NCBI GenBank assembly: GCA_947627455.1
Contig: CANQWC010000009.1
Location: forward strand, 1-64,000
Reading direction: 5' to 3'
Origin: an uncultured Clostridia bacterium
GTDB lineage: Bacteria > Bacillota > Clostridia > Oscillospirales > Ruminococcaceae
DNA length: 64,000 bases
The notes beneath the pieces were generated by a model, which worked only from the letters and a program-made list of their open reading frames with translations, searched no databases and was not told the DNA's origin. The translations under genes and the position numbers were made by a program. Positions 16,370-36,388 of the stretch are shown one piece after another; positions within the stretch are counted from its first letter, which is position 1; each line of letters starts with the position of its first letter.

Positions 16370-17590
16370 ATGACCTATACCGCTGAAGAAACGATACAGT
16401 ATGTTGCCGAGGAGGACGTAAAGTTTATACGTCTTGCTTTTGTCGATGTTTTCGGCACTCAGAAGAATATTTCTATCCAGCCGGGGGAGCTCGAGCGCGC
16501 CTTTAAATACGGCATCGGCATCGACGCTTCGGCGATAGCGGGCTTCGGCGGGGTGGTTCATTCCGACCTGTTTCTGCACCCCGACCCGTCAACCCTCGCG
16601 ATACTCCCGTGGAGGCCAGAGCACGGCAGGGTAGTCAGAATGTTCTGCACGATCACCTATCCCGACGGCCGCGAGTTTTTGCCCGACACAAGAAGCCTCC
16701 TCAAAAAGGCGGTAGAGCTTGCCGAGGAAGAGGGTTACAGCTTCTATATCGGCTCGGAGACCGAGTTTTACCTCTTTAACCGCGATGAAAAGGGCAACCC
16801 TACCGACGAACCCTACGACGAAGCGGGTTATATGGACATCGCGCCCGCCGACAAGGGCGAGAATGTGCGTCGCGAGATATGCCTTGACCTCGAGAGAATG
16901 GGGATAATCCCCGAAAGCTCTCACCACGCCGAGGGCCCCGGGCAGAATGAGATAGATTTCAAGCGCGCCGACCCCTTGAAGGCTGCCGACGACGCCGTGA
17001 CTTTCCGCTCGGTAGTAAGCACCATCGCCGCAAGAAACGGCCTTTACGCCGATTTTTCCCCGAAGCCGCTCAAAAACCGCGCGGGCAACGGCTTTCATAT
17101 AAAGGTCTCGGTCGCGCATAACGAGCGCGGCGAGCTTTTGCCGAAGGTCATCGCGGGAATACTCAACCGCGTGAACGACATGACCCTCTTCCTCAACACC
17201 GTCAGCGAGTCTTATTTAAGGCTCGGAGCGAATAAGGCGCCGAAGTATGTCTCATGGTCGGGCGAGAACCGCTCTCAGCTGATAAGAATACCCGCACCCG
17301 TCGGCGAATCTCAGGATCTCAGAGCCGCCGAGCTTCGTTCTCCCGACCCGATGGCGAACCCCTACCTTGCCTTCGCGCTGATAATTCTTGCGGGGCTCGA
17401 GGGCCTCAAGAGCGGCGCCGAGCTTCCGATGGCCGCCGATATTGACCTCTACTCCGCCGACGAGGAGACCCTTTCGGGCTTCAAGGCGCTGCCCCACGAC
17501 CTCGACGAGGCGATAAGAGCGGCGCGTTCAAGCGATTTCATCAAAAAATATCTTCCCGACCAGCTGCTGGAGAGCTATATAAAGAGGTAA
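16370..17590 (+). CDS. glnA: Glutamine synthetase, type I, compact form
   Basis: Ammonia is fixed onto glutamate using ATP. Motifs visible: VDVFGTQKNISI, SETEFYLF (metal-ligand Glu), SHHAEGPGQNEIDF, NRAGNGFHIKVS, RLGANKAPKYVSWSGENRSQLIRIP and AAELRSPDPMANPYLAFALI. At 406 residues it is shorter than usual GSI (about 440-470), the loss being spread over the C-terminal third. The window therefore has two unrelated-length glutamine synthetases: this one inside the glutamate synthase operon and GSIII on the divergent strand. The ATG at 16370 follows a GGAGAGGG site 24 bases after the preceding stop. Confidence 0.92.
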   Translation: MTYTAEETIQYVAEEDVKFIRLAFVDVFGTQKNISIQPGELERAFKYGIGIDASAIAGFGGVVHSDLFLHPDPSTLAILPWRPEHGRVVRMFCTITYPDGREFLPDTRSLLKKAVELAEEEGYSFYIGSETEFYLFNRDEKGNPTDEPYDEAGYMDIAPADKGENVRREICLDLERMGIIPESSHHAEGPGQNEIDFKRADPLKAADDAVTFRSVVSTIAARNGLYADFSPKPLKNRAGNGFHIKVSVAHNERGELLPKVIAGILNRVNDMTLFLNTVSESYLRLGANKAPKYVSWSGENRSQLIRIPAPVGESQDLRAAELRSPDPMANPYLAFALIILAGLEGLKSGAELPMAADIDLYSADEETLSGFKALPHDLDEAIRAARSSDFIKKYLPDQLLESYIKR

Positions 17591-17615
17591 ACCGAATTTT
17601 TTGCGGAGGGAAACC

Positions 17616-18203
17616 ATGGGCCCGAAAGAAAATGTTTACAGCGTTCTGCTTGTCTCTGCCGCCGAGAAGTTCAATTCTTCGCTGATAAACGCTCTTCCGA
17701 CCGAAAGATACGGCCCGATAAAGGTCGTTTCGGGCGTCGGGATAGCCAAGCGGGAGCTTCTTGAGCGGTCGTACGACATCGTGTTGATAAACACACCGCT
17801 CCCCGACGACTTCGGCACACGGCTTGCGATAGATCTGTCTACCGATCTCGGTCTCGGGGTGATAATATTCGTCAGAAGCGAGAATTTCAGCGAGGTATAT
17901 GACCAAGTGACCGATTACGGCGTTTTGACGGTTTCAAAGCCCGCCAACGGGCAGATACTTTTACAGTCGATGCTTCTTCTCTGCGCGACCCGCGAACGCC
18001 TCCGCAGAATGGAGAAAAAGACGGCATCCATCGAGGAGAAAATGGAGGAGATAAGGCTTGTCAACAGGGCGAAGTGGGTGCTCATCGACAACCTTAAAAT
18101 GAACGAAGCCGAGGCGCACCGATATATCGAGAGGCAGGCGATGAACTCCTGCACCCCGAAAAAACAGGTCGCCGAGGAGATAATAAAACAGTATGGAAAA
18201 TAA
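17616..18203 (+). CDS. ANTAR-domain response-regulator-like antiterminator
   Basis: A 195-residue protein with an N-terminal receiver-like domain (about 1-125), a coiled-coil linker (REKL-type heptads around ERLRRMEKKTASIEEKMEE) and a C-terminal ANTAR RNA-binding domain (about 140-190: NRAKWVLIDNLKMNEAEAHRYIERQAM...KKQVAEEII). Where a receiver normally has its phospho-acceptor Asp, this one reads VLINTPLPD, with Asn, so signalling by phosphorylation is doubtful. ANTAR proteins bind paired hexaloop hairpins and block terminators. Matching hexaloops occur in the glnN leader and at the head of this operon. The ATG at 17616 follows GCGGAGGG; the TTG at 17601 is less likely. Confidence 0.88.
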   Translation: MGPKENVYSVLLVSAAEKFNSSLINALPTERYGPIKVVSGVGIAKRELLERSYDIVLINTPLPDDFGTRLAIDLSTDLGLGVIIFVRSENFSEVYDQVTDYGVLTVSKPANGQILLQSMLLLCATRERLRRMEKKTASIEEKMEEIRLVNRAKWVLIDNLKMNEAEAHRYIERQAMNSCTPKKQVAEEIIKQYGK

Positions 18204-18218
18204 TAACAGGGAGGCTGA

Positions 18219-19829
<1,611 letters not shown>

Positions 19830-19837
19830 AAAATTGA

Positions 19838-19867
19838 AAGCGGAACGTCTTCGGGTGTTCCGCTTTT
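19838..19867 (+). terminator. Terminator after pyrG
   Basis: AGCGGAAC (19839-19846) pairs with GTTCCGCT (19857-19864), with a 10-base loop and a short T-run. It closes the 8.5-kb nitrogen operon. Confidence 0.85.
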
Positions 19868-19963
19868 GCGCTTCTCTACAGTCATATTTTACAAGAGCTT
19901 TTGCAAAGGCATATTGAAAAGCAACCATAAAGCCGAATTTTTGCGAATATTCGGGATTAGCTC

Positions 19964-19992
19964 TTGACTTTATAAGTTTAAAGGCGTACAAT
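19964..19992 (+). promoter_or_regulatory. Promoter of the aromatic amino acid operon
   Basis: TTGACT (19964-19969), 17-base spacer, TACAAT (19987-19992). Start of transcription is expected near 19999, giving a leader of about 155 bases. Confidence 0.85.
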
Positions 19993-20020
19993 ATATAAAA
20001 CGCTTTTTCGGAGGTGCGCC

Positions 20021-20068
20021 GTGTCTGCGGTAACTGATTTCGGTTTTTATTATTATTTTATCATCTGA
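20021..20068 (+). CDS. Phe/Tyr-rich leader peptide of the aromatic operon
   Basis: A 15-codon ORF, GTG start, well placed behind GGAGG (20010-20014), encodes MSAVTDFGFYYYFII. Three Phe and three consecutive Tyr codons lie in the seven positions FGFYYYF. This is the layout of amino-acid-sensing leader peptides such as PheL. The stop codon TGA (20066-20068) overlaps the left arm of the proposed antiterminator (20067-20073). A ribosome halted at the Tyr codons would leave that arm free. One reaching the stop would cover it and let the terminator form. The genes downstream make chorismate and the tyrosine precursor, matching the sensed residues. Confidence 0.8.
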   Translation: MSAVTDFGFYYYFII

Positions 20069-20134
20069 GCAGTACGGGCATTTTCATTTTTGCTCCACTG
20101 CTTATTCGTGTTGAATAATCAATGGGGCGTTTTT
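20067..20134 (+). promoter_or_regulatory. Attenuator of the aromatic operon (antiterminator and terminator)
   Basis: Terminator: GCTCCA (20092-20097) pairs with TGGGGC (20123-20128), an inner TTATTC/GAATAA helix (20102-20107 with 20113-20118) extends it, and GTTTTT follows. Antiterminator: GAGCAGT (20067-20073) pairs with ACTGCTT (20097-20103), seven pairs that use bases of the terminator's left arm. The two are mutually exclusive. The first structural gene begins 20 bases after the T-run, with its own GGAGG at 20144-20148. Confidence 0.8.
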
Positions 20135-20153
20135 ATTGTTATCGGAGGAAGTT

Positions 20154-21449
20154 ATGGATAAGCTTGAAGCCGCAAGGTCGAAAATCAACGAGGTAGATTC
20201 AAAAATCGCCGAGCTCTGGGTCGAGCGCATGGCCGCTGTTGCCGATGTCTCCGACTATAAGCGCGAGCACGGCCTGCCCGTTCTTGATTCGGGCCGCGAG
20301 TCGGCTCTTCTTGAAAAAAATCTTGAGAATATTCCCGATGATCTTCGCGGCTATTACGCCGATTTTCTGAAGGGCGTCATCGGCGTCTCAAAAAAATATC
20401 AGCGAGACATGTCGGCCAAAGAGAGCGGCTTTATCTGCCTTAATCTCGGCGACCGAAGCTATGACATCTGCGTCGAACGGGGCAGTCTTTCCCGCGCGGG
20501 CGAGCTCATGAACCTGAAAAGAAAGGTTCTTGTCGTCACCGACGACGGCGTTCCCGCCGAATACGCAAAAACCGTCGCATCGTTTTGCGATGAGCCTTTT
20601 GTCGTCACCCTGCCGCAGGGCGAGAGCACCAAGTGCCTTGAAAGCTTCCGCCTGCTTCTTCGCAGAATGCTCGACAGCCGCTTCACGAGGGGCGACTGCG
20701 TTGTCGCGGTCGGCGGGGGAGTTATCGGCGATCTTGCGGGCTTTGCGGCCTCGGCGTACATGCGCGGCATCGATTTTTACAACGTCCCGACGACCTCGCT
20801 CTCTCAGATCGACTCGTCGATTGGCGGAAAGGTCGCCATCGACCTCGACGGCTATAAAAATACCGTCGGCGCTTTCTGGCAGCCTAAATTTGTGCTCATC
20901 GACCCCGACGTCCTCTCGACGCTCGACCAAAGGCAGCTCTCCTGCGGGCTTGCCGAGGCGGTGAAGATGTCGCTATGCTTCGACGAGGGCCTCTTCGCGA
21001 TGTTTGAAAACGGCGATATCTCTCAGAATCTCGACGAAATAATCCGCCGCTCGCTGATGATAAAAAAATCGGTCGTCGAGCGCGACGAGCGTGAATCGGG
21101 CCTTCGCAGGGTTCTCAACTTCGGCCACACGATCGGCCACGGAATCGAGACTGCCGAGGGCGGCCGCCTCTTCCACGGCGAATGTGTTGCGCTCGGTATG
21201 CTTTCGATGTGCTCGCCGAGCGTCAGAAAAAGGCTGATAAAGGTTCTTGAAAAGCTCAACCTGCCGACGGAAATCACCGCCGACATTGAAAAGGTCAAGT
21301 CGGCTATGCTTCACGACAAAAAGTCGGTGCAAAGCGGCGTTGCGGTGGTAAGGGTCCCCGAGGCGGGCCGCTTTAAGCTTGAAAACCTGAGCTTTGAAAA
21401 GCTCTTCGCCGAGCTTGACAGCTATATTTCGGAGGTGCGGAAAAAGTGA
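20154..21449 (+). CDS. Chorismate mutase - 3-dehydroquinate synthase fusion
   Basis: Residues 1-about 85 form an AroQ-type chorismate mutase: the helical pattern LEAARSKINEVDSKIAELWVERMAAVADVSDYKREHGLPVLD has the conserved Arg, Lys and Asp spacing. From about residue 95 to the end is AroB, the NAD-dependent dehydroquinate synthase: VVTDDGVPAEYA, VAVGGGVIGDLAGFAAS, MRGIDFYNVPTTSLSQIDSSIGGK, and the metal ligands in NFGHTIGHGIE and FHGECVALGM. The steps joined are the second of the shikimate pathway and the first after chorismate, so they are not consecutive. Total 431 residues. The ATG at 20154 has GGAGG. It heads the operon, and its stop overlaps aroC (GTGA). Confidence 0.92.
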   Translation: MDKLEAARSKINEVDSKIAELWVERMAAVADVSDYKREHGLPVLDSGRESALLEKNLENIPDDLRGYYADFLKGVIGVSKKYQRDMSAKESGFICLNLGDRSYDICVERGSLSRAGELMNLKRKVLVVTDDGVPAEYAKTVASFCDEPFVVTLPQGESTKCLESFRLLLRRMLDSRFTRGDCVVAVGGGVIGDLAGFAASAYMRGIDFYNVPTTSLSQIDSSIGGKVAIDLDGYKNTVGAFWQPKFVLIDPDVLSTLDQRQLSCGLAEAVKMSLCFDEGLFAMFENGDISQNLDEIIRRSLMIKKSVVERDERESGLRRVLNFGHTIGHGIETAEGGRLFHGECVALGMLSMCSPSVRKRLIKVLEKLNLPTEITADIEKVKSAMLHDKKSVQSGVAVVRVPEAGRFKLENLSFEKLFAELDSYISEVRKK

Positions 21450-22537
21450 AAAATACATACGGAAACAGCGTCAGCATAACCCTTTTCGGCGAGAGCCACG
21501 GCCCCGCGATAGGCGCGGTTCTTGACGGCCTCGCCGCGGGAATACCCGTCGACGAGAGCTTTATCGCCGAGCAGCTCAGAAAGCGCCGCCCGAGCGGTAA
21601 AATCTCGACCTCGCGGGTTGAGGAGGACAAATTTGAGATCCTCAGCGGCGTGTTCAACGGAAAGACCACGGGCACCCCGATAGCTGTAGTTATACCCAAC
21701 GAAAATGTCAAGAGCGGCGATTATTCTGATATTTCGCGGCTTGCACGCCCGGGGCACGCCGACTACACCGCCCACCTGAAATATCACGGCTTTGAAGATT
21801 TCAGGGGCGGCGGCCATTTCAGCGGGCGTGTGACCGCTGCGATAGTTGCCGTCGGCGCGATAGCCGCTTCGGCGCTCACGGCAAAGGGCGTTAAAATCGG
21901 CACGCATATAAAATCCTGCGCGGGAATCTCGGACCGCGAGTTTTCGGATATCGAGAGCGACATCGACCTGCTCAATTCCCTCGATTTTTCCGTTCTCGAT
22001 CCCGAGATCTCCTCCGCGATGATCGAGAAGATCGAGGCCGCCGCAAAGGACGGCGACAGCGTCGGCGGCGAGCTTGAAACCGCTGTATTCGGCTTCCCGT
22101 CGGGCGTCGGCGAGCCTTTCTTTGACAGCGTTGAGAGCCGCCTTTCCCATGCTCTTTTCTCGATTCCTGCGGTCAAGGGCGTTCAGTTCGGTGACGGCTT
22201 TGCGCTCGCCTCGATGCGCGGAAGCGAGGCCAACGACCCCATCGAAATCAAGGGCGGCAGGGTCGTCACAAAGACCAACCGCGCGGGCGGCATCAACGGG
22301 GGAATCACCAACGGAATGCCGATAATTTTCAGCTGCGCGATAAAGCCCACGCCGTCGATATTCAAGACCCAAGACACCGTCGACTATATCAGGCTTGAAA
22401 ACGCCAAGCTGAGCCTCAAGGGCCGCCACGACCCCGCGATTATCCACCGCGCCCGAGTCGTCATCGACAGCATAGCTGCTATATCTCTCTGCGACATGCT
22501 CGCCGAGCGCTTCGGAACCGACTTTCTGATGCCATGA
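21446..22537 (+). CDS. aroC: Chorismate synthase
   Basis: It forms chorismate from EPSP with reduced FMN. Signature segments: SVSITLFGESHGPAIGAVLDGL near the N-terminus, KRRPSGKISTSRVEEDKFEILSG, RPGHADYTAHLKY, RGGGHFSGRVTA, and toward the end GGINGGITNGMPIIF and RHDPAIIHRARVV. 363 residues, normal length. The GTG start at 21446 overlaps the previous stop by four bases, with GGAGGTG upstream, so translation is coupled to the mutase/DHQ synthase. Confidence 0.97.
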   Translation: MKNTYGNSVSITLFGESHGPAIGAVLDGLAAGIPVDESFIAEQLRKRRPSGKISTSRVEEDKFEILSGVFNGKTTGTPIAVVIPNENVKSGDYSDISRLARPGHADYTAHLKYHGFEDFRGGGHFSGRVTAAIVAVGAIAASALTAKGVKIGTHIKSCAGISDREFSDIESDIDLLNSLDFSVLDPEISSAMIEKIEAAAKDGDSVGGELETAVFGFPSGVGEPFFDSVESRLSHALFSIPAVKGVQFGDGFALASMRGSEANDPIEIKGGRVVTKTNRAGGINGGITNGMPIIFSCAIKPTPSIFKTQDTVDYIRLENAKLSLKGRHDPAIIHRARVVIDSIAAISLCDMLAERFGTDFLMP

Positions 22538-22551
22538 TCCGGAGGTAATAA

Positions 22552-23790
22552 ATGGAATACGGCTGCATCGCAAAAAAACTCGGGCATAGCTTTTCCGCGG
22601 AAATACACTCGCTCATCGGCGGCTACGACTACCGCCTCCGCGAGGTCGCCGAGGACGAGCTCGACAGCTTCATGAAAGCCCGCGACTTCATCGGAATCAA
22701 CGTCACGATACCCTATAAAAAGGACGTGATTCCCTATCTTTCCGAGATGAACGACATCGCCGCGCGAATCGGCTCGGTCAACACCGTTGTGAACCGAGGC
22801 GGAAAGCTTTACGGCTATAACACCGATTATTTCGGTCTGAAAGCCCTGATCGCCCATGCGAAAATTTCTCTCGAGGGCAGAACGGTGCTGGTTCTCGGCA
22901 CTGGCGGCACCTCGGTGATGGCTCAGTGCGTCGCGAGCGACCTCGGCGCAAAAGAGGTCAAGGCTGTCTCGCGAAGGCCCGCCGACGGAGTTATCACCTA
23001 TCGCGAGGCCGAAGAAAACTATCGCGATGCCGAAATTATCATCAACACGACGCCCGTCGGAATGTTCCCCGAAAACTACGCCGCGCCGATAGATATTTCC
23101 CGATTTGAGCGTCTCGAAGGCGTTGTCGACGCGGTTTTCAACCCGCTGCGAACCCCTCTTGTGCTGAGCGCCGAAAAGCGCGGAATAAAGGCTGAGGGCG
23201 GGCTTTATATGCTCGTCGCCCAGGCGGTCTATGCCTCGGAAATTTTCCGCGATGTCAGCATACCTAAGACTGAAATTGACAGAATTTTCCGCGGGGTTCT
23301 TCGCATGAAAGAGAACATCGCCCTGACGGGAATGCCCGCCTGCGGCAAAAGTGCGACGGGAAGATTCATCGCCGAAAAGCTCGGCCGCAAGCTCGTCGAC
23401 ACCGATGATGAGATAGTCAAGAGAACGGGTAAAGAGATCACCGAGATTTTTGCCGAGCTCGGCGAAGGGGGCTTCCGAGACATTGAGACAGAGGTAATAA
23501 AAGACGTCTGCAAGCGCTCGGGCATAGTGATTTCAACGGGCGGAGGAGCGATTCTGCGCGATGAAAACGTCGACGCGCTCAGGCAGAACTGTAAAGTATT
23601 CTTCCTTGACAGAGATCCCGATTGGCTCACCCCGACCGCCGACCGCCCGACCGCGAGCGACAGAGCGGCCATAAGAAAGCGCTATGACGAGCGCCACGAA
23701 AGGTATATCTCCACCGCCGACGAGGTCATAATCCCCGCCGACGGCGCAGAAATAAACGCAAAAACGGTAATTGAAAGGTTTTTGAAATGA
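22552..23790 (+). CDS. aroE/aroK: Shikimate dehydrogenase - shikimate kinase fusion
   Basis: Two consecutive shikimate steps in one 412-residue chain. AroE occupies about residues 1-245: GCIAKKLGHSFSAEIH, INVTIPYKKDVIPYL with the catalytic Lys, NTVVNRGGKLYGYNTDYFG, the NADP fold VLVLGTGGTSVMAQ, INTTPVGMFP. AroK begins at about residue 255: P-loop LTGMPACGKSATGRFIAEKLG, DTDDEIVKRTG, a mid-domain GGFRDIE (usually FRxxE), STGGGAILRDEN, then a lid region with DRPTASDRAAIRKRYDERHERY. Both active sites look intact. The ATG at 22552 has GGAGG; the end overlaps aroQ by four bases (ATGA). Confidence 0.95.
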   Translation: MEYGCIAKKLGHSFSAEIHSLIGGYDYRLREVAEDELDSFMKARDFIGINVTIPYKKDVIPYLSEMNDIAARIGSVNTVVNRGGKLYGYNTDYFGLKALIAHAKISLEGRTVLVLGTGGTSVMAQCVASDLGAKEVKAVSRRPADGVITYREAEENYRDAEIIINTTPVGMFPENYAAPIDISRFERLEGVVDAVFNPLRTPLVLSAEKRGIKAEGGLYMLVAQAVYASEIFRDVSIPKTEIDRIFRGVLRMKENIALTGMPACGKSATGRFIAEKLGRKLVDTDDEIVKRTGKEITEIFAELGEGGFRDIETEVIKDVCKRSGIVISTGGGAILRDENVDALRQNCKVFFLDRDPDWLTPTADRPTASDRAAIRKRYDERHERYISTADEVIIPADGAEINAKTVIERFLK

Positions 23791-24224
23791 AGATTCTCGT
23801 GATTAACGGCCCGAACCTGAACATGCTCGGTATACGCGAGCCCGACATCTACGGCTGCGAGACCTACGCCTCGCTGATTAAAAAGATAGAGGAGCACTGT
23901 AAAGCAAAATCGCTTTACGTCGAGTGTTACCAATCCAACCACGAGGGCAGCCTCGTCGACAAAATTCAGGAGGCCTACGGTGTCTTTGACGGCATCGTGA
24001 TAAACCCTGGGGCCTATACCCATACAAGCGTCGCGCTGCTTGACGCGCTCAAAGCGGTCTCCATCCCGACCGTCGAGGTTCATATCTCCGAGGTTGACAA
24101 GCGCGAGGGTTTCCGCCAAACAAGCTACGTCAGAGCGGCCTGTATTGCGACTATAACGGGACACGGCACCGACGGCTATCTTGAGGCCATTGACCTCTTG
24201 GCTGAAAGGGCAGGCGCAAAATGA
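23787..24224 (+). CDS. aroQ: 3-dehydroquinate dehydratase, type II
   Basis: It dehydrates 3-dehydroquinate to 3-dehydroshikimate. At 145 residues with LVINGPNLNMLGIREPDIYG at the N-terminus (catalytic Tyr in IYG), QSNHEGSLVDKIQ, INPGAYTHTSVALLDAL and VEVHISEVDKREGFRQTSY, it is a clear small dodecameric-type enzyme, not type I AroD. ATGA overlaps link it to genes on both sides. Confidence 0.97.
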   Translation: MKILVINGPNLNMLGIREPDIYGCETYASLIKKIEEHCKAKSLYVECYQSNHEGSLVDKIQEAYGVFDGIVINPGAYTHTSVALLDALKAVSIPTVEVHISEVDKREGFRQTSYVRAACIATITGHGTDGYLEAIDLLAERAGAK

Positions 24225-25423
24225 TCGCAAAAATTGAGAAATCCCGCCTCAGCGGCTATGCAGGCGCACCGCCCTCAAAGAGCATGGCTCACCGCCTGCT
24301 TCTTCTTGCGGCGCTGACGGGCGGCAGATGTAAAGTAAATAACCTTGCCTATTCCGATGATGTCCTCGCGATGCTCGACTGCCTGCGGGCCCTCGGCGCT
24401 GAGTGCGAGGTCGACGGCTCAACCGTTTCAGTCGACGGCAGCAACTTCATGAAAAAAGTCACCCCGAGCCTCAACTGCCGCGAGAGCGGAAACACCCTGC
24501 GCTTTTTGATTCCGCTTTGCCTGACCCTCGGAAAAAAGGTGACGCTCAGCGGCTCAGACCGCCTTATGGAGCGCCCCCAGTCGGTTTATGAAGACCTTTG
24601 CAGCGAGCACGGCTTCAACTACGACGGCCGCGGGCCCATTACCGTAAAAGGCGGGCTCAGGGCGGGGAAGTATACCCTTGACGGCTCGGTCTCAAGCCAG
24701 TTTATCTCGGGCATGATCTTTGCGCTGCTTTACTGCGAGGGCGACAGCGTCATCAAAATTCTCCCGCCTTTTGAAAGCCGCTCCTACGTTGAGCTCACGC
24801 TTTCGGCGGTTCACGAATTCGGCGGCGAGGTAAGCTTCACCGACCCGCTCACGATAGCTGTAAAGGGCAGAAGCCTTACTCCTCGCGATGTCACCGTCGA
24901 GGGCGATTTCTCAAACTCCGCGTTTTTAGAGGCTTTTAACTTCATCGGCGGCGATGTATTCCTCAGCGGCCTGTCATTGGATTCCGCTCAGGGCGACAAG
25001 GCATACCGCTTTTATTTCCCGAAATTTTTGGATTCAAGCCCCGTGATCGACATAAGAGACTGCCCCGACCTCGGCCCGATATATATTGCGCTCGGTGTTC
25101 TTAAGAACGGCTGCACACTTATCGGCACCCGAAGGCTCTCAATCAAAGAGAGCGACCGAGGCGAAGCCATGAAAGAGGAGCTCAAAAAATTCGGCGCCGA
25201 TATTGTCATCGAGTTCGATAAGATAACCGTCCCGAAATGTTCTCTCAAAACCCCGAGCGAGCCCCTCAGCGGCCACAACGACCACCGCATTGTGATGTCT
25301 CTCGCGGTAATCTGTTCTGTCGTCGGCGGCACGATCGAGGGCGCGGAGGCGGTCAGAAAGACCTATCCCGACTTCTTCGACGTCACGAAAAATCTCGGCC
25401 TGCGGGTCGAACTTACGGAGTGA
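24221..25423 (+). CDS. aroA: EPSP synthase (3-phosphoshikimate 1-carboxyvinyltransferase)
   Basis: It joins phosphoenolpyruvate to shikimate-3-phosphate. Motifs visible: PPSKSMAHRLLLLAAL (substrate-binding Lys-Ser), LNCRESGNTLRFLIPLCL, LMERPQSVYEDL, SSQFISGMIFALL, IKESDRGEAMKEELKKFGAD and a C-terminal DHRIVMSLAV. 400 residues, slightly shorter than E. coli AroA (427). The LxxRESGxTLR variant is common in clostridia. The start overlaps the aroQ stop, and tyrA begins 5 bases after its stop. Confidence 0.96.
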   Translation: MIAKIEKSRLSGYAGAPPSKSMAHRLLLLAALTGGRCKVNNLAYSDDVLAMLDCLRALGAECEVDGSTVSVDGSNFMKKVTPSLNCRESGNTLRFLIPLCLTLGKKVTLSGSDRLMERPQSVYEDLCSEHGFNYDGRGPITVKGGLRAGKYTLDGSVSSQFISGMIFALLYCEGDSVIKILPPFESRSYVELTLSAVHEFGGEVSFTDPLTIAVKGRSLTPRDVTVEGDFSNSAFLEAFNFIGGDVFLSGLSLDSAQGDKAYRFYFPKFLDSSPVIDIRDCPDLGPIYIALGVLKNGCTLIGTRRLSIKESDRGEAMKEELKKFGADIVIEFDKITVPKCSLKTPSEPLSGHNDHRIVMSLAVICSVVGGTIEGAEAVRKTYPDFFDVTKNLGLRVELTE

Positions 25424-25428
25424 TTCAT

Positions 25429-26283
25429 ATGATGATTGACGTTAAAAAGAATATCCTGATAGTCGGCCTCGGTCTCATCGGCGGAAGCTATGCCGAGGCG
25501 CTTAAGAGATACGGTTTTCGCGTCACCGCGATAACCCGCTCTCAGAGGTCGATCGACTATGCCCTTGAAAAGGGTCTTATCGATGACGGCGCCGCCTCGG
25601 TCGAGCCACGCCTTGTCTCTGAGGCCGATATCGTCGTATTCGCGCTCTATCCCCATATTTTTATCGAGTGGATAGAGAAGAACCAGCACCTCTTCAAGAG
25701 TGGTGCGCTTCTGACCGACGTCACGGGCGTAAAGGGCTCGGTGGTATATAAGGTTCAGGATATCCTGCGCCCCGACTGCGAATTCATCGCCGCTCACCCG
25801 ATGGCGGGCCGCGAGGTCTACGGCGTAGAGAATGCCACCGCGCGAATTTTCCACGGCGCAAACTACATCGTCACCCCGACCGAAAAGAACACCCCCGAGG
25901 CGATTGAAACCTGCCGCGAGCTCGGGCTTTTGCTCGGGTTTGCCCGTGTGGCCGAGCTCAGCCCCGAAGACCACGACGAAATGATCGGCTTCGTCTCCCA
26001 GCTCACCCACTGCATCGCCGTCTCGCTGATGACCTGCAACGACGCCGAGAACATCGAAAAATTCACGGGCGATTCCTTCCGCGACCTGACGAGAATCGCG
26101 AAAATAAACGATTTGATGTGGTCCGAGCTCTTTATGGCGAACAAAAAGGCGCTGCTCGACCAGATGGATCTGTTCTCGGCCCAGTTTAAAAAGCTTCGCG
26201 ATATGATTGAAAGCGGCGACGTCGACGGAATGCGCGAGATGATGAAATATTCAAGCGAGCGCAGGGCAAAGTTTGACAAGTGA
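25429..26283 (+). CDS. tyrA: Prephenate dehydrogenase
   Basis: It oxidatively decarboxylates prephenate to 4-hydroxyphenylpyruvate, the tyrosine branch. The NAD fold is ILIVGLGLIGGSYAEALKRYG. Downstream are DVTGVKGSVV, AAHPMAGREVYG (catalytic His region), NYIVTPTEKN and a helical C-terminal dimer domain with SQLTHCIAVSLM. 284 residues, lacking a C-terminal ACT domain, so feedback through that domain is not expected. The ATG at 25429 (a second ATG follows at once) has GGAG upstream. No prephenate dehydratase is seen in the window. Confidence 0.93.
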   Translation: MMIDVKKNILIVGLGLIGGSYAEALKRYGFRVTAITRSQRSIDYALEKGLIDDGAASVEPRLVSEADIVVFALYPHIFIEWIEKNQHLFKSGALLTDVTGVKGSVVYKVQDILRPDCEFIAAHPMAGREVYGVENATARIFHGANYIVTPTEKNTPEAIETCRELGLLLGFARVAELSPEDHDEMIGFVSQLTHCIAVSLMTCNDAENIEKFTGDSFRDLTRIAKINDLMWSELFMANKKALLDQMDLFSAQFKKLRDMIESGDVDGMREMMKYSSERRAKFDK

Positions 26284-26316
26284 TCTATACTTCATTCCGA
26301 AAGGTTGGTATGTAAT

Positions 26317-27345
26317 ATGAATATGGTATTTGAACGCAAGCTTCCTATTCCGCAAGAGGTAAAGAAGATGTTCCCGCTCTCCGACGAGCTCGCGAAGACC
26401 GTTAAACAGCGTGCCGACGAGCTTGCCGACATCTTCGCGGGAAGATCCGACAAATTTATCCTGATAATCGGCCCCTGCTCGGCAGATAACGCCGACAGCG
26501 TCCTCGATTACATCTCCCGCCTGAGAAAGGTTCAGGAGGAAGTCAAGGACAAAATTTTCATTATCCCGAGGATATACACGGGCAAGCCCCGCACAACGGG
26601 CGACGGCTACAAGGGTCTGCTCCACCAGCCCGACCCGAACGAAAAACCCGACATGTTCAAGGGCATCGTCGCGATAAGAAACCTTCACATGCGTGCGCTG
26701 AGCGAATCGGGCTTCTCCTGCGCAGATGAAATGCTCTACCCCGAGAACCACCGCTATCTGAGCGATATAATCGGCTATGTCGCTGTCGGCGCGCGTTCTG
26801 TCGAGGATCAGCACCACCGTTTGACGGCCTCGGGCCTGAATATCCCCGTCGGCATGAAAAACCCGATGAGCGGCGATATTTCGGTGATGCTCAACTCGGT
26901 TTCCGCGGCCCAGCACCCCCACACATTCATCTACCGCGGCTGGGAGGTTCATTCGACAGGCAACCCGCTTGCCCACGCGATTCTTCGCGGCTATGTCAAC
27001 AAGCACGGCCAGAATATGCCGAACTATCATTATGAAGACCTGCTCCACCTAAGCGAGGCCTACGCAAAAAGCGGTCTGCTCAACCCCGCGGTCATCATCG
27101 ACACCAACCACTCCAACTCGGACAAAGACCCGTTCCGGCAGCCGAGAATCTGCAAAGAGGTTCTTTACAGCTGCCGCCATTCCGACGACATCAAAAAGAT
27201 CGTCAAGGGCTTCATGATCGAGAGCTATATCGAAGACGGCTCTCAGAAGATAGGCGAGTGCATTTACGGAAAGTCCATCACCGACCCCTGCCTCGGCTGG
27301 GAGAAGAGTGAGCGCCTGATTTACGACATCGCCGAGTTAGTATGA
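26317..27345 (+). CDS. aroF: 3-deoxy-7-phosphoheptulonate (DAHP) synthase, AroFGH type
   Basis: The first committed aromatic step: condensation of PEP and erythrose-4-phosphate. Motifs of the E. coli AroF/G/H class: ILIIGPCSADNADSVLDY, YTGKPRTTGDGYKGLLHQPD, GARSVEDQHHRLTASGL, PVGMKNPMSGD, IDTNHSNSDKDPFRQP, GFMIESYIEDGSQ and YGKSITDPCLGWEKSE. 342 residues, near the 350 of AroG. The start is set at ATG 26317, behind GAAAGG; TTG 26305 is possible. It is the last gene of the operon; I see no convincing terminator in the 155 bases before argG. Confidence 0.95.
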   Translation: MNMVFERKLPIPQEVKKMFPLSDELAKTVKQRADELADIFAGRSDKFILIIGPCSADNADSVLDYISRLRKVQEEVKDKIFIIPRIYTGKPRTTGDGYKGLLHQPDPNEKPDMFKGIVAIRNLHMRALSESGFSCADEMLYPENHRYLSDIIGYVAVGARSVEDQHHRLTASGLNIPVGMKNPMSGDISVMLNSVSAAQHPHTFIYRGWEVHSTGNPLAHAILRGYVNKHGQNMPNYHYEDLLHLSEAYAKSGLLNPAVIIDTNHSNSDKDPFRQPRICKEVLYSCRHSDDIKKIVKGFMIESYIEDGSQKIGECIYGKSITDPCLGWEKSERLIYDIAELV

Positions 27346-27431
27346 CGGTGTGAAATCTGCCCAATAAGTTTTTGCGCAGGACTGAAATGCCTGAGCATAT
27401 TCACAAAAATGAATAAAATACCGAAAACCCC

Positions 27432-27465
27432 TTGACAAATCTGAATATTTATTGCATAATATGCA
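27432..27465 (+). promoter_or_regulatory. argG promoter with ARG-box-like and palindromic operator
   Basis: TTGACA (27432-27437), 17-base spacer, CATAAT (27455-27460). The spacer holds TCTGAATATTTATTGCAT (27440-27457), whose left half fits the ArgR/AhrC box TNTGAATWWWWATTCA; the right half is off by one inserted base. A perfect palindrome, TGCATA-A-TATGCA (27453-27465), covers the -10 box. Both positions suit a repressor. Confidence 0.65.
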
Positions 27466-27501
27466 GACAGAAAACTAAATATTGCATACAGGAGGATAAA
27501 A

Positions 27502-28725
27502 ATGAATAAAGATTGCATAAAAAAGGTTGTTTTGGCATATTCGGGAGGGCTTGACACCTCGATAATAATTCCGTGGCTCAAGGAGAACTACAACAACTGC
27601 GAGGTCATCGCGGTCTCGGGCAACGTCGGCCAGGCCGATGAGCTTGAGGGTCTCGAGGAAAAGGCTCTTAAAACGGGCGCGTCGAAGCTCTATGTCCTCG
27701 ACCTCACCGACGAGTACGTCGACGAATATATAATCCCGACGATGAAGGCGGGCGCGGCCTATGAGGAATACCTCCTCGGCACCTCTCACGCAAGGCCCTG
27801 CATCGCTAAAGGTCTTGTAGAGATCGCGAAGAAAGAGCACGCCGACGCCATCGTTCACGGCTGCACTGGCAAGGGCAACGATCAGGTCCGCTTCGAGCTC
27901 GCAATCAAGCACTTCGCCCCCGATATGCCTATTATCGCCCCTTGGCGCGAGTGGAACATCAAATCCCGCGACGAGGAGATCGACTATGCCGAGGCGCACA
28001 ATATCCCGCTTAAGATCAACCGCGAGACAAATTATTCCAAGGACAAGAACCTCTGGCACCTCTCTCACGAGGGCCTCGACCTTGAAGACACGGGCAACGA
28101 GCCTCAGTATGAGAAGAAAGGCTTCCTTGAAATGGGCGTCAGCCCGATTCAGGCGCCCGACAAGCCCGAGTATGTCGAAATCGAATTCGACAAGGGCGTT
28201 CCCGTCGCCCTCAATGGCGAGAAGATGAGCGCCAAGAACATCATTTTAGAGCTTAATAAAATCGGCGGCCGCAACGGCATCGGCATCATCGACATCGTCG
28301 AGAACCGCCTTGTCGGAATGAAGTGCCGCGGCGTTTACGAGACCCCGGGCGGAACGGTACTCTATAAAGCCCACTCGGTATTAGAGTCGATATGCCTCGA
28401 CAAAATGACGCTTCACGAAAAGCAGCGCCTCTCGATAACCTTTGCCGAGCTCGTCTATAACGGCCAGTGGTTCACGCCCCTGCGCGAGGCGCTTTCGGCC
28501 TTTGTCGATAAAACTCAGGAGCGCGTAACGGGTAAGGTTCGCTTAAAGCTCTACAAGGGCAACATGATCAACGCTGGCGTCTGGAGCGAAAACAGCCTTT
28601 ACAGCGAAGAAATCGCGACCTTCGGCGAGTCCGACTATGACCAGAAGGATTCCGCGGGCTTCATCAATCTTTACGGCCTGCCGATAAAGGTTCAGGCGCT
28701 TGTCGACGAAAAGAACAAAAAGTAA
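27502..28725 (+). CDS. argG: Argininosuccinate synthase
   Basis: It joins citrulline and aspartate with ATP in arginine synthesis. The N-type ATP pyrophosphatase motif is [22 protein letters not shown]. Further family segments are [75 protein letters not shown] and [30 protein letters not shown]. 407 residues, full length. The ATG follows CAGGAGG. First of argG-argH-argF, from its own promoter. Confidence 0.97.
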
Positions 28726-28742
28726 GAAGGGGAGGGATTGAG

Positions 28743-30137
28743 ATGGTTAAAATGTGGCAGGGCGTCACCGACGGCGTGACCTCGGCGCTTGCCGACGATT
28801 TCAATTCCTCGGTTTCCTTTGATTCGCGAATGTTCCGCGAGGATATCGCGGGCTCGGTCGCCCACGCGAAGATGCTCTCAAAGCAGGGGATAATCACCGA
28901 GGAAGAGGCCGAGAAGATAATTTCGGGCCTCGGGGGCATTCTTCGCGATCTTGAAAGCGGCGCCCTGAAAATCGACCCCGAGGCCGAGGATATCCACATG
29001 TTTGTCGAGCAGGTCCTCACCGAGAGAATAGGCGACGCGGGCAAGAGGCTTCACACCGCGCGTTCGCGAAACGACCAAGTAGCCCTTGATCTGCGGCTCT
29101 ATCTCAGGAATGAGACCGACGCGATTTTAAAGCTTTTGGACGATGCGATAGGCTCGATCTGCGACAAGGCCGATGAATACAAAGACGCGGTAATGCCGGG
29201 CTACACCCATCTTCAAAGGGCCCAGCCGATACTCTTTTCACACCAGCTTCTTGCCTACTGCATGATGCTTCTTCGCGACGCCGACCGCCTACGCGACTGC
29301 CGCAAGCGAATAAATGTCAGCCCGATAGGCTCCTGCGCTTTGGCGGGCACGACCTATGCCACCGACCGCGGGTTCGAGGCCGAGCTCATGGGCTTTGACG
29401 GCGTATGCCTCAACTCTGTTGACGGCGTTTCCGACCGCGATTTCGCGCTCGAACTGATGAGCGCCCTCGCAATTTTGCAGATGCACCTCTCGCGCTTCTG
29501 CGAGGAGCTTATTTTGTGGTCGAGCTGGGAATTCCGCTTTGTCGAGTTTTCGGACAACTTCACGACGGGCTCGTCGATAATGCCCCAGAAGAAAAACCCC
29601 GACATGGCCGAGCTCATCAGGGGCAAAACGGGCAGGGTCTACGGCAACCTGATGGCGCTTTTGACGGCGCTAAAAGGCTTGCCGCTCGCCTATAACAAAG
29701 ATATGCAGGAGGACAAGGAAGCCGTCTTTGACTCGGCTGACACCGTCAAGGCCTGCCTCGGTGTTTTGGCGCCGATGGTTCGCGAGATGAAGGCGCACCC
29801 CGAGAATATGCTCACCGCCGCGCAGACGGGCTTCATCAACGCCACCGACCTCGCCGACTATCTTGTGAGAAAAGGCTTGCCTTTCCGCTCGGCATATAAA
29901 ATCGCGGGGCAGACGGTCGCTAAGTGCCGCGCCGAGGGCTGTATTCTTGAAACCCTGCCGCTTGAAGAATACAAATCTCTCAGCGAGCTTTTCGAGAACG
30001 ATCTTTATAACGACATTGACCTTAAAACCTGCGTTGAAAAGCGAATTTCCGAGGGCGGGACCTCCCGCGGCTCGGTTGAAAATCAGATAAAATATGTCAG
30101 GAAAATGCTTGCCGCCCCGAAAGGAGAAAATTTATGA
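28743..30137 (+). CDS. argH: Argininosuccinate lyase
   Basis: It splits argininosuccinate into arginine and fumarate. Motifs: [43 protein letters not shown], and the signature loop [22 protein letters not shown] containing the mobile catalytic serine. 464 residues, normal length. It begins 17 bases after argG behind a GGGGAGGG site and overlaps argF by four bases. Confidence 0.97.
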
Positions 30138-31123
30138 TATCACTCAAAGGCAGAAGCTTTTTGCGGCTTCTTGATTTCACCCCTGCCGAGATAGAGGGGC
30201 TTTTAAACGCCGCCGCCGAGCTTAAATCGCTTAAAAAGGCGGGGATTCCCCACCGCTATCTTGAGGGCAAGAACGTCGCGCTCATATTTGAAAAAACCTC
30301 CACCCGAACCCGCTGTTCGTTTGAGGTCGCGGCCGCCGATCTCGGCATGCACGCCGTTTACCTCGACCCGAAATCCTCTCAGGTCGGAAAGAAAGAGTCC
30401 ATTCCCGACACCGCGCGCGTCCTCGGAAGAATGTTCGACGGAATAGAATACCGCGGCTACGGTCAGGAGCTTGCCGAGAGCCTTGCGCACTATTCGGGCG
30501 TTCCCGTCTGGAACGGCCTCACCAACGAATTTCACCCGACCCAGATACTCGCCGATTTTCTCACGATTCGCGAGCACCTCGGGCAATTAAAGGGCGTCAA
30601 GCTGGTCTATGCGGGCGATGCCCGCTATAACATGGGCAACTCGCTGATGGTCGGCTGCGCAAAAATGGGAATGCACTTCGTGGCGTGTTCCCCGAAGGGC
30701 TATTTCCCCGATGGCGAGCTTGTCGCCGAGTGCCGCGAGGTCGCAAAGGAGACGGGCGCTACCCTTGATTTTATCGAAGATATTCAGACCGCTGTCAGCG
30801 GCGCCGATGTCATTTATACCGATGTCTGGGTCTCGATGGGCGAGCCCGACGAGGTCTGGGCCGAGAGGATAAAGGACCTCATGCCCTATCAGGTCAACTC
30901 AAAGATGATGTCGATGACGGGCAAAAAAACGCTGTTCATGCACTGCCTGCCCGCGTTTCACGATTTAAAGACCGAGATCGGCAGAGAGATGTATGAAAAA
31001 TTCGGCTATGACTGCCTCGAAGTCACCGACGAGGTATTCGAGTCCGAAGCTTCGGTCGTTTTCGATGAGGCAGAGAATCGGCTTCACACCATCAAAGCCG
31101 TCATGGCGACGACACTTATTTAG
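30134..31123 (+). CDS. argF: Ornithine carbamoyltransferase
   Basis: It transfers the carbamoyl group to ornithine, giving citrulline. The carbamoyl phosphate motif is [16 protein letters not shown], with [10 protein letters not shown]-type and [14 protein letters not shown] segments, [18 protein letters not shown], and the ornithine-binding loop [15 protein letters not shown]. 329 residues. The ATGA overlap with argH, a terminator at its end, and carAB just beyond give a full citrulline-to-arginine supply line. Ornithine-making genes are not in the window. Confidence 0.97.
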
Positions 31124-31130
31124 TTTTTTA

Positions 31131-31158
31131 CATCACCCCGAAAGGGTGATGTTTTTTT
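31131..31158 (+). terminator. Terminator after argF
   Basis: CATCACCC (31131-31138), loop CGAAA, GGGTGATG (31144-31151), then TTTTTTT. Confidence 0.92.
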
Positions 31159-31197
31159 GTGCATAACATAGAATTTTAAAATCCGTGTGATTTTCGG

Positions 31198-31226
31198 TTG
31201 AACTTTATTTTTAAATATGCTATCAT
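31198..31226 (+). promoter_or_regulatory. carA promoter
   Basis: TTGAAC (31198-31203), 17-base spacer, TATCAT (31221-31226), 39 bases before the start codon. Confidence 0.75.
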
Positions 31227-31264
31227 TATATGTTGAAAAAATATAGGAAGGACGGAAATAAATT

Positions 31265-32353
31265 ATGAACGGGATTCAGATTTCCAAAAAAGCCTATCTG
31301 GTATTGTCAAACGGTGCTGCGTTCGAGGGCACGCGCATCGGTGCCGACGGTGAAAGCCTCGGCGAGCTTGTCTTCACAACGGGAATGACAGGCTATCTTG
31401 AAACCCTTACCGACCCGAGCTACTGCGGCCAGATCGTCATGCAGACCTTTCCGCTGATCGGCAACTACGGCGTAATTCCCGAAGATTTTGAGGGAAAGAC
31501 CGCCGTCAAAGGCTATGTCGTCCGCGAGCTCTGCGACGAGCCCTCTAATTTTCGCTCGGAATATGAGCTCGACAAATTTCTCAAGGAAAACGGCATAGTC
31601 GGCCTCTGCGGGGTCGACACCCGCGAAATCACAAGAATTATCCGCGAGGAGGGCGTTATGAACGCCAAAATCTGCGATGAGATCCCAGCCGATATTTCCG
31701 ACATCTGCGAGTACCGCGTCTTAAAGGCGGTCGAGACCGTCAGCCGAAAAGAGCCCGAGGTCTATCCCGCCGAGGGTGAAAAGAAATTCCGCGTCGCCCT
31801 GATGGATTACGGCGCAAAACAGAATATAATCCGAAGCCTTCAGAGCCGCGGCTGCGAGGTAACATGCTTCCCCGAGAGCACCAAGGCTGAGGAAGTCCTC
31901 GCTTCATCGCCCGACGGAATAATGCTTTCAAACGGCCCGGGCGACCCCGAGGAGAACACCGCCGCCATCGCCGAGCTGAGAAAAATGATAGGCAAAGCGC
32001 CTATCTTCGGAATCTGCCTCGGCCACCAGCTCACCGCGCTCGCGATGGGCGGAAAGACGGTCAAGCTGAAATACGGCCACCGAGGCGCGAACCAGCCCGT
32101 CAAAGACCTCATCGGCGGCAGGACCTACATCACAAGCCAGAACCACGGCTATGCGGTTGTCGCCGAAAGCCTTGAGGGCATCGGCCGCGAGACGTTTGTC
32201 AACGCCAACGACGGCAGCTGCGAGGGCATGGACTACCCCGACAAAAACTGCTTCACTGTCCAGTTCCACCCCGAGGCCTGCGGAGGCCCGCACGACACTG
32301 CGTTTTTGTTCGACAGATTTATTTCAATGATGGGAGGCGAGCGCAATGCCTAA
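31265..32353 (+). CDS. carA: Carbamoyl-phosphate synthase small (glutaminase) chain
   Basis: It hydrolyses glutamine and passes ammonia to CarB. The N-terminal CarA-specific domain is at about residues 10-140 (YLVLSNGAAFEGTRIG, TGMTGYLETLTDPSYCGQIV, GVDTREITRIIREEG). The class I amidotransferase domain follows from about 170: MDYGAKQNIIRSL, LSNGPGDPEEN, FGICLGHQLTALAMGGKT (nucleophile Cys) and TVQFHPEACGGPHDT. 362 residues. It overlaps carB by eight bases. With arg and pyr genes around, it serves both arginine and pyrimidines. Confidence 0.96.
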   Translation: MNGIQISKKAYLVLSNGAAFEGTRIGADGESLGELVFTTGMTGYLETLTDPSYCGQIVMQTFPLIGNYGVIPEDFEGKTAVKGYVVRELCDEPSNFRSEYELDKFLKENGIVGLCGVDTREITRIIREEGVMNAKICDEIPADISDICEYRVLKAVETVSRKEPEVYPAEGEKKFRVALMDYGAKQNIIRSLQSRGCEVTCFPESTKAEEVLASSPDGIMLSNGPGDPEENTAAIAELRKMIGKAPIFGICLGHQLTALAMGGKTVKLKYGHRGANQPVKDLIGGRTYITSQNHGYAVVAESLEGIGRETFVNANDGSCEGMDYPDKNCFTVQFHPEACGGPHDTAFLFDRFISMMGGERNA

Positions 32354-35300
32354 GGATCTCAGCATTAAAAAAGTTCTCGTGATAGGCTCGGGCCCGATAA
32401 TAATCGGTCAGGCAGCCGAGTTCGACTATGCGGGCGCTCAGGCCTGCCGAGTTCTCCGCGCCGAGGGCATCAACGTCGTATTGGTAAACTCTAACCCCGC
32501 GACGATAATGACCGATAAAAACCTCGCCGACGAAATTTATCTCGAGCCCCTCAACGCCGAGACAGTCGCGAGAATTATAGAAAAAGAGCGTCCCGACGGC
32601 CTTCTTGCGGGCCTCGGCGGCCAGACGGGCCTCACCATCGCGATGCAGCTTTCGCGCATGGGTGTTCTTGAAAAATACGATGTTCGGCTTTTGGGCTCTG
32701 ATATCGCCGCGATTGACAAGGCCGAGGACCGCGAGCTCTTCCGCGACACTATGAAAGAAATCGGCCAGCCCGTCGTCCCGTCCGACATCGCCCACACCGT
32801 CGACGGCGCGCTTGAAATCGCCGAAAAAATCGGCTACCCCGTAATAGTTCGCCCCGCGTTTACGCTCGGCGGCTCGGGCGGGGGAATCGCCGCGGACGAA
32901 GAGGAGCTTAAGATCATCGCGAAAACGGGCCTCGACGCCTCGCCGATAACTCAGGTGCTGATTGAAAAGTGCATCTCGGGCTGGAAGGAAATAGAGTTTG
33001 AAACGATGCGCGATTCCCTCGGAAACGTCATCGCGGTCTGCTCGATGGAAAACTTCGACCCCGTCGGCGTTCACACGGGCGATTCGATAGTCGTCGCGCC
33101 CGCCCTCACCCTCGCCGACAAGGAGTACCAGATGCTCCGCTCGGCCTCGCTCGATATTATTTCCTCGATCGGCATCGTCGGCGGCTGCAACTGCCAGTTC
33201 GCCCTCAACCCCGAGAGCTTTGAATACGCCGTCATCGAGGTCAACCCGCGTGTCTCGCGCTCGTCCGCTCTCGCCTCAAAGGCGACGGGCTACCCGATCG
33301 CGAAGATAACCACCAAAATAGCCCTCGGCTATACCCTCGACGAAATCAAGAACGAGATCACGGGCAAAACCTGCGCCTGCTTCGAGCCGACGCTCGACTA
33401 CGTAGTCGTGAAGTTCCCGAAGTGGCCGTTCGACAAATTCAGCGGCTCGAACCGCACCCTCGGCACTCAGATGAAAGCCACGGGCGAGGTCATGTCGATT
33501 GCCCCCAACTTCGAGATGGCACTTTTGAAAGCCGTTCGCGGGGCGGAGATTTCCCTTGACACCCTCAACGCCGCGCCTCTTTCCGACAAGCCCGTTGAGG
33601 AGCGCCTTCACGAGCAGAACGACCGCCGAATCTTCACCGTTTTTGAGGCGCTGAAGAGCGGCGTGAGCATCGAAAAAATTCACGGGATAACCCTCATCGA
33701 CGAGTGGTTTCTCTCAAAGCTGAAAAAGCTCGCCGATTTTGAGAAGAGGATAGCTGGCGGTCTCTCCGACGGCGATTACCTTGCTGCAAAGCGCTTCGGC
33801 TATACCGACGCCGCTATCTCCCGCCTCTCGGGCGAAAAAAATCTTCCGACGCTTGATTTCAGCTATAAAATGGTCGATACCTGCGGCGCCGAGTTTGACG
33901 CCGTGACCCCTTATTTCTACTCCTGCTGCGAAAAATCCTGCGAGGCAAGAACTTTTACCCGTTCGGGCAAGCCCGTTGTAATGGTTCTCGGGTCGGGTCC
34001 GATAAGAATCGGTCAGGGCATCGAGTTCGATTACAGCTCCGTCCACTGCGTATGGACGCTTCGTGAGCTCGGCTATGACGTCGTCATCGTCAACAACAAC
34101 CCCGAGACCGTCTCGACCGACTATGACACCGCAGACAGGCTCTATTTCGAGCCGCTCTGCCCCGAGGACGTCATGAACATAATCAAGGTCGAGAAGCCCG
34201 TCGGCGTAGTTGTAGCTTTCGGCGGCCAGACCGCGATAAAGCTCACAAAATTCCTCGACGAGCACGGAATAACCATTTTGGGCACCTCTGCCGACGGCAT
34301 CGATACCGCCGAGGACAGGGCACGCTTCGACGGCCTGCTTGAATCCCTCGGAATAAAGCGCCCGAGGGGAATGGGCGTTCTGACCGAGCAGGAGGCGCTC
34401 GACGCCGCCGAGTCGCTCGGATACCCCGTTCTTCTGAGGCCGTCATATGTCATCGGCGGACAGAACATGACAATTTCCCGCAGCCCCGCGCATACTTCAA
34501 AATACATGAAGGCTATTTTGGCGCAGGGGATTGAAAACCCCGTTCTGGTCGATAAATACATGCCCGGCACCGAGCTCGAGGTCGACGTCATTTCCGATGG
34601 CGAGGACGTTCTTATCCCGGGCATCATGGAGCACATCGAGCGCGCGGGAATTCATTCGGGCGACTCAATAGCCGTCTACCCGCCTTATAATCTCAGCGAC
34701 AGGTTCTTAAAGATAATCTGCGACTGCTCCGAGAAGCTTGCGCTCGGCCTCAAGACAAAGGGCCTTGTGAACATTCAGTACCTGATCTATGACAACGAGC
34801 TTTACGTCATCGAGGTCAACCCGAGGGCTTCAAGAACCGTTCCGTATATAAGCAAGGTCACCAACGTTCCGATGGTCGACCTCGCGTCAAAGGTCATGCT
34901 CGGCGCAAAGCTTCGCGACCTCGGCTACGGCAGCGGTTTGCATAAAGCCCCGCCATATTATGCCGTAAAAGTCCCCGTTTTCTCGTTCGAGAAGCTCTCG
35001 GACGCCAACTCTATCTTAGGCCCCGAGATGAAGTCTACGGGCGAGGTCCTCGGAATCGGCAAAACCCTTGCTGAGGCGCTGTTCAAGGGCCTCACGGCGG
35101 CGGGCTTTGCGGTTCAGCACGCGAGCAGCCGCACAAAGGGCGTGTTCATCAGCGTTGAAGAAAACGACTATGACGAGATAATCTCTCTTGCGAAGCGCTT
35201 CTACGACCTCGGCACCGATATCTACGCGACGGCGGGCACTGCCGACGGCATCGCTCAGCTCGGAATTCCCGTTATCCCCGTTGCCGATGCGGGCGAGTCG

Positions 35301-36374: not shown

Positions 36375-36388
36375 AGGTGGGTGTAACC

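Follow-up and report, generated by a model that had tools for sequence, protein, structure and literature searches.

A putative Tyr/Phe leader-peptide attenuator ahead of the shikimate operon in an uncultured Clostridia bacterium and its conservation within the genus

Leader-peptide attenuation is a classical form of transcriptional control, and the bacterial group studied here is usually thought to use other switches. In the 64-kb stretch of DNA analysed in this study (the window), which derives from an uncultured Clostridia bacterium, a leader with a short ORF rich in Phe and Tyr codons occupies the gap between an upstream CTP synthase gene and an aro operon. A preliminary description of this locus suggested that shortage of charged Phe- or Tyr-tRNA switches on the operon through the leader. 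The question raised by the locus is whether the leader is a genuine and conserved element, and by which mechanism it may control the genes behind it.

Seven genes with nine activities follow the leader (Table 1), and the Pfam assignments cover all seven shikimate steps, chorismate mutase and prephenate dehydrogenase; the nine aromatic activities mentioned in the preliminary description were thus borne out. Neighbouring aro genes overlap or are separated by at most about 21 nt, with the start of TyrA being uncertain. The dehydrogenase domain of TyrA begins at residue 86 of the longest ORF, so the true start is probably located further down. The sole prephenate dehydratase (PheA) found in the genome lies on another contig (C4), behind a gene resembling a second DAHP synthase (judged by eye). 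In this second operon, only 6 nt separate the DAHP-synthase-like gene from the preceding ORF, and a search of the 420 nt upstream of PheA yielded no F/Y leader. The presence of TyrA in the aro operon and the absence of PheA from it fit the dominance of Tyr in the leaders.

Three further observations were made around the operon. The best promoter match within 17000-36500 (TTGACA-17-CATAAT, 27432-27460, 11/12) precedes the gene for ArgG, which is encoded behind the aro operon. An ORF of 1342 aa at 32346-36374 combines carbamoyl-phosphate synthase large subunit and diaminopimelate epimerase domains, which is an unusual fusion. An ANTAR-domain regulator (17601-18203) stands directly after a glutamine synthetase gene.

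Table 1 Features of the leader and the aro operon in the window
Feature	Position	Strand	Basis
Sigma-70-type promoter, TTGACT-17-TACAAT	19964..19992	+	10/12 consensus
Shine-Dalgarno (SD) site GGAGGT of the leader ORF	20010..20015	+	Read directly
Leader ORF, GTG start, 15 codons, MSAVTDFGFYYYFII followed by the stop codon; three Phe and three Tyr codons (Tyr consecutive)	20021..20068	+	
Helix 20010-20028/20069-20085, sequestering the leader SD/start and segment 2	20010..20085	+	Folding; window-specific
Antiterminator (2:3), 20066-20073/20097-20104 and 20076-20080/20091-20095	20066..20104	+	Folding, alignment
Intrinsic terminator (3:4), stem 20092-20107/20113-20128, U tract 20130-20134	20092..20134	+	
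CM_2 chorismate mutase-AroB (3-dehydroquinate synthase) fusion (CM-AroB)	20154..21449	+	Pfam
AroC chorismate synthase	21446..22537	+	Pfam
AroE-AroK fusion (shikimate dehydrogenase and shikimate kinase)	22552..23790	+	Pfam
AroQ type II dehydroquinase	23787..24224	+	Pfam
AroA EPSP synthase	24221..25423	+	Pfam
TyrA prephenate dehydrogenase, longest ORF	25237..26283	+	Pfam
DAHP synthase (DAHP_synth_1)	26305..27345	+	Pfam

The promoter, the ribosome site, the 15-codon ORF and the terminator described previously were all read directly from the sequence. The terminator stem consists of two 16-nt arms that form 14 pairs with two mismatches. The seven-pair alternative helix of the preliminary description (20067-20073/20097-20103) exists and is larger, including a second stem, and the leader stop codon (20066-20068) does overlap its left arm. 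The region 20060-20110 folds at -15.3 kcal/mol (z -4.3), which was equalled by none of 200 shuffles. The whole leader folded alone adopts the helix of the SD/start with 20069-20085 together with the terminator, at -39.2 kcal/mol (z -3.1; 1 of 200 shuffles was as good). Folding yielded the antiterminator when the 5' part was removed and the terminator when segment 2 was removed; the naked RNA of the window, carrying no ribosome, terminates in the folding model because of its own 5' helix. A protector-like 1:2 helix is present in the window and in the design of the sister clade described below, and is not common to the relatives of the window. A screen of both strands of the window for short ORFs (8-40 aa) that follow an SD-like site and contain five or more F/Y within 8 residues yielded the leader alone.

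Thirteen of the 31 genomes of the genus, including the genome of the window, carry the CM-AroB fusion (66-100% identity). Alignment of the leaders of these CM-AroB operons, the check proposed in the preliminary description, revealed that 12 of the 13 genomes retain all three elements, namely the Phe/Tyr run, antiterminator and terminator. A translatable short F/Y ORF bearing an SD site was likewise present in 12 of the 13 orthologous leaders, and the promoter TTGACTT in all 13 upstream regions. A covariance model built from 11 leaders (R1) recovered exactly the 12 leaders from the 31 genus genomes and nothing else at E <= 0.001; the twelfth leader (G004), outside the training set, was recovered at E 1.3e-8. 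The observation is therefore real and exceeds chance: no other such ORF exists in the window, and 12 of 13 orthologous leaders retain the design.

The peptide cores of the 12 leaders (FYYYF, FFYYY, YVYYFYY, YYYYF, YYYFYY, YYYFY, YSYY, FYFYYY, FYYFYY, FFYFYY, YFYYY and YFGYYYF) have only an interchangeable mix of Tyr and Phe in common, and one of them (L007) has three Tyr codons only. Both synonymous codons are used for each residue, with TAT 37, TAC 10, TTT 15 and TTC 7 among the 69 F/Y codons. Each leader contains 3-7 aromatic codons in the leader frame versus 0-4 in the other two frames, with fewer in the other frames for every leader. The last F/Y codon lies 10 nt from segment 2 in eight of the 12 leaders (range 4-13), and the stop codon starts 1-5 nt before segment 2 in nine. 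The stop is displaced downstream in the other three (L005, L009 and L010), which belong to sister species (tree support 95/93); their ORFs end 47, 47 and 17 nt past the start of segment 2, respectively, and those of L005 and L009 extend into the terminator loop. A close relative without the small ORF, which had been named as evidence against the proposal, was found once: G019 (L012) keeps the promoter, and its shortened leader contains neither the F/Y ORF nor the antiterminator. The leader is present in L011, the closest neighbour of L012 in the CM-AroB tree. A short simple hairpin and a T run stand before the CM-AroB gene of L012.

Pairing statistics were calculated on an alignment of 11 rows (A3), from which L011 was left out, MAFFT having misplaced its segment 2; by eye and by folding, L011 keeps the antiterminator helix with changed sequence. 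Ninety-six per cent of the antiterminator cells pair, and two pairs (6 cells) have changed on both sides. The pairing percentage, the doubly changed cells and the covariation score were matched by 1 of 500 shuffles. The counts of changed pairs and additional pair types were reached by 55 and 329 of 500, respectively, and were not unusual; the structure was tested on the sequences from which it was derived. The independent changes are few because four of the six doubly changed cells come from one clade (L005, L006, L009 and L010). The terminator pairs in 93.7% of cells, compared with at most 47% when slid, and its covariation was not above shuffles (43/500), with little variation. Our results therefore suggest some compensatory change in the antiterminator, resting on few events; the earlier question whether both helices are kept by compensatory changes can be answered to this extent for the antiterminator, the variation in the terminator being too slight to tell.

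The alternative states of the 12 leaders were modelled by base-pair probabilities, in which a ribosome on the third-last F/Y codon covered 15 nt ahead and a ribosome at the stop covered 13 nt; in the three leaders without a stop at segment 2, the start of that segment served as the ribosome position. Before segment 4 exists, segments 2 and 3 pair in 12/12 leaders in the model, and when segment 2 is covered, segments 3 and 4 pair in 12/12. With segment 4 present at equilibrium, the antiterminator was kept in 5/12 and the terminator preferred in 7/12; therefore, the order of synthesis must decide in these seven, with 2:3 forming first. The ribosome-free leaders gave the antiterminator in seven cases, the terminator in four and a mixed state in one. 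Were the ribosome to stand on the final F/Y codon instead, at 10 nt from segment 2, it would itself cover part of this segment. In the window, the antiterminator excludes the terminator, and in the model its left arm lies within reach of a ribosome at the stop and out of reach from the codon run.

On the basis of sequence and modelled folding, the element in the window is very probably a ribosome-mediated (leader-peptide) transcription attenuator. We infer an amino-acid response in which tRNA charging would be the signal, acting through ribosome position and termination on the operon. RNA polymerase would start near 20000, and a ribosome would begin the leader ORF. Under a shortage of charged tRNA-Tyr or tRNA-Phe, stalling would occur within the FYYYF run, with the ribosome some 10-20 nt before segment 2 (20066-20080), which would be left free to pair with segment 3 (20091-20104) once the latter has emerged; the terminator could then not form, and the aro operon would be read. 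When both tRNAs are plentiful, the ribosome would reach the stop codon and cover the overlapping segment 2, so that segment 3 would pair with segment 4 (20113-20128) and transcription would terminate. The interpretation of the leader as an attenuator responding to Phe/Tyr shortage finds good support in the comparison with related genomes.

The same modelled folds would result if the ribosome stalled at the same position for another cause, such as a nascent peptide that arrests it in response to free Tyr, free Phe or another small molecule, as in TnaC- or Erm-like systems. However, arrest peptides keep specific residues, whereas the leader peptides display no residue pattern beyond the Tyr/Phe mix, and nothing directly supports an arrest peptide; we consider this explanation very unlikely. 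A T-box, a TRAP-like element or a ligand riboswitch might also run the terminator, the small ORF being incidental. The genome of the window contains 10 T-box matches with E <= 0.001, two or more of which exceed the gathering score, so a tRNA-binding leader would be at home there, and T-box matches occur in 31/31 genus genomes. By contrast, no Rfam model matched the window at the gathering score, and none gave a credible match to 19940-20170 even with E values up to 10 allowed. With its length of about 135 nt, the leader is short for the usual T-box, and the conservation between promoter and segment 2 in the relatives is mainly that of the codon run at the amino-acid level. We consider such a switch very unlikely as well. 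The T-box (RF00230) and all other Rfam families, including the amino-acid leaders (Phe, Trp, His etc.), were tried as candidates and dropped, there being no covariance-model match. Annotation relying on Rfam will miss the leader because its RNA matches no Rfam family.

General coupling of translation and transcription, in which the leader would sense ribosome traffic or aid reinitiation without amino-acid specificity, is consistent with the ribosome-free models: seven of the 12 leaders antiterminate in this state, so that the operon would open whenever leader translation is blocked. The Tyr/Phe codons are nevertheless kept in 12/12 leaders, and recur both in the sister clade, whose leader is different, and in other Clostridia; we consider unspecific coupling very unlikely.

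The putative attenuator of the window resembles the enterobacterial trp, phe and his leaders in having a short ORF with codons for the end product, competing 2:3 and 3:4 helices and a terminator before a biosynthetic operon. It differs from them in its mixed Tyr and Phe codons, in preceding a whole shikimate operon, in lacking a shared 1:2 protector and in the overlap of the stop codon with segment 2. The preliminary description had also likened it to enterobacterial leaders, and had added that Bacillota mostly use T-boxes or TRAP; the latter statement needs amendment, because leader-peptide attenuators have precedent in Bacillota. Passages of the respective papers describe such attenuators with His codons before his operons and hisS (PMC9413887, PMC2965389) and a Leu-rich attenuator peptide with genetic evidence at ilv-leu of S. 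aureus (PMC5794164). These share a leader peptide and a terminator/antiterminator with the window, and differ in the amino acid (His or Leu) and in the genes. In Corynebacterium glutamicum, an actinobacterium, a putative attenuator leader peptide containing Phe-Tyr-Phe precedes the DAHP synthase gene aroF, the one such gene named in the excerpt of PMC4046766; the likeness is one of description. The uORFC-13-1 motif before the DAHP synthase gene aroF in Acholeplasma, as presented in part of PMC8632094, is a U-run uORF coding at least one Phe and adjoining an intrinsic terminator. It differs from the window in organism, consensus and operon, and Tyr codons go unmentioned in section 26. In passages of PMC1262725, no element of this kind is reported for actinobacterial phenylalanine or tyrosine operons. 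Among the open-licence PMC matches listed, no report of Tyr/Phe leaders before Clostridia aro operons was found. The kind of attenuator is thus already known; the present case is of interest for the conservation described here and because Tyr/Phe leaders recur among Clostridia that also use T-boxes. Control of the whole shikimate pathway by Tyr and Phe is predicted in uncultured gut Clostridia that also carry T-boxes.

A second design was found in the sister clade of the genus. Seventeen other genus genomes have an aroB match, all without the CM-AroB fusion, and G007 has no aroB match. The operon start could be read in 14 of the 17, where DAHP synthase is followed by TyrA (N-terminal sequence). 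Twelve of the 17 (L186-L192, L203, L204 and L206-L208) were read to carry a Tyr/Phe leader ORF and, behind it, a terminator, for example MSKRIAGLSGVICFAYYYYFTMR and MLRAYFYNAYYFYFTQLQF; peptide examples are FAYYYYFTMR and YFYNAYYFYFT. These ORFs start about 160-240 nt before the DAHP synthase ORF. In G002, G025 and G029, the codon run was found by pattern match only, about 2 kb before aroB; the locus of G020 is cut by the contig end, and no Tyr/Phe leader was recognised in G026. In most of the 12, the codon run itself folds with the next segment into a long 1:2 helix, in addition to the terminator, and this leader would follow the classical three-helix, trp-like plan in the folding models. It thus shares with the window a Tyr/Phe-rich ORF and a terminator before an aro operon, and differs in the leading DAHP synthase-TyrA gene order and in the use of the codon run as a 1:2 arm. 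No Rfam match was present at the five sister-clade loci checked (L186, L187, L188, L191 and L192). None of the sister-clade leaders was found by R1, so the two designs follow the same logic with no common sequence recognisable to R1; they may have a common origin.

We lean towards the view, with reservation, that ribosome-mediated Tyr/Phe attenuation arose on more than one occasion in the aro operons of gut Clostridia, a single genus having two or more RNA designs on two differently ordered operons. The clade of the window would then have a pared-down form, with no shared protector helix, with termination through a ribosome covering the antiterminator at the stop, and with three sister species whose ORF runs into or through the antiterminator. 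The genus offers a natural series for the gain, rewiring and exchange of an attenuator: 12 leaders kept (three of them stop-shifted), one lost and a second design in the sister clade.

Beyond the genus, L016 (G054) carries a full-length CM-AroB at 47% identity, and no such leader was recognised in the 330 nt upstream; no leader was seen at L014, L015, L017 and L018 (AroB alone) in the stretch read, which falls inside the operon. A family-wide RNA family as modelled by R1 was considered and rejected, as 11 of 297 family genomes matched, three of them in the genus; the other eight matches, inspected from about 110 nt upstream to 160 nt downstream of their start, showed neither an F/Y leader nor an aro gene. 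A single ancestral motif GCGATGG...CCACCGC...CGGTGG across the class was not supported either (0/391 genomes), although a strict exact pattern is weak evidence.

Among the best 80 of 529 loci, 71 were used for a wider scan (L040-L110, of which L041 is a genus member; the genus loci L031-L039 were left out), and 171 gaps before plus-strand ORFs were searched for F/Y/W-rich short ORFs with an SD-like site. Fifteen matches were obtained in 15 of these 71 loci, against 1.3 expected from shuffles; no F/Y/W-rich leader was found in the other 56, in some of which the operon start lies outside the locus. Nine of the 15 precede chorismate mutase or DAHP synthase genes (N-terminal sequence, by eye; one being the genus member), four precede an aminotransferase-like gene (by eye), including L109 with a very T-rich stretch, and two (L063 and L105) look unrelated. 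Eighteen such leaders were folded, and about seven appeared by eye to have a helix competing with the terminator (L040, L045, L046, L049, L066, L067 and L108). Rfam searches at eight such loci detected no family except tRNA at the gathering score. In other Clostridia, F/Y-rich leader ORFs that stand before an aro or aminotransferase-like gene were noted at L040, L045, L046, L049, L064, L066, L067, L083, L093, L106 and L108. In several of them the codon run is followed by ..AMD/E, and GCGATGGA faces a later TCCACCGC or a close variant.
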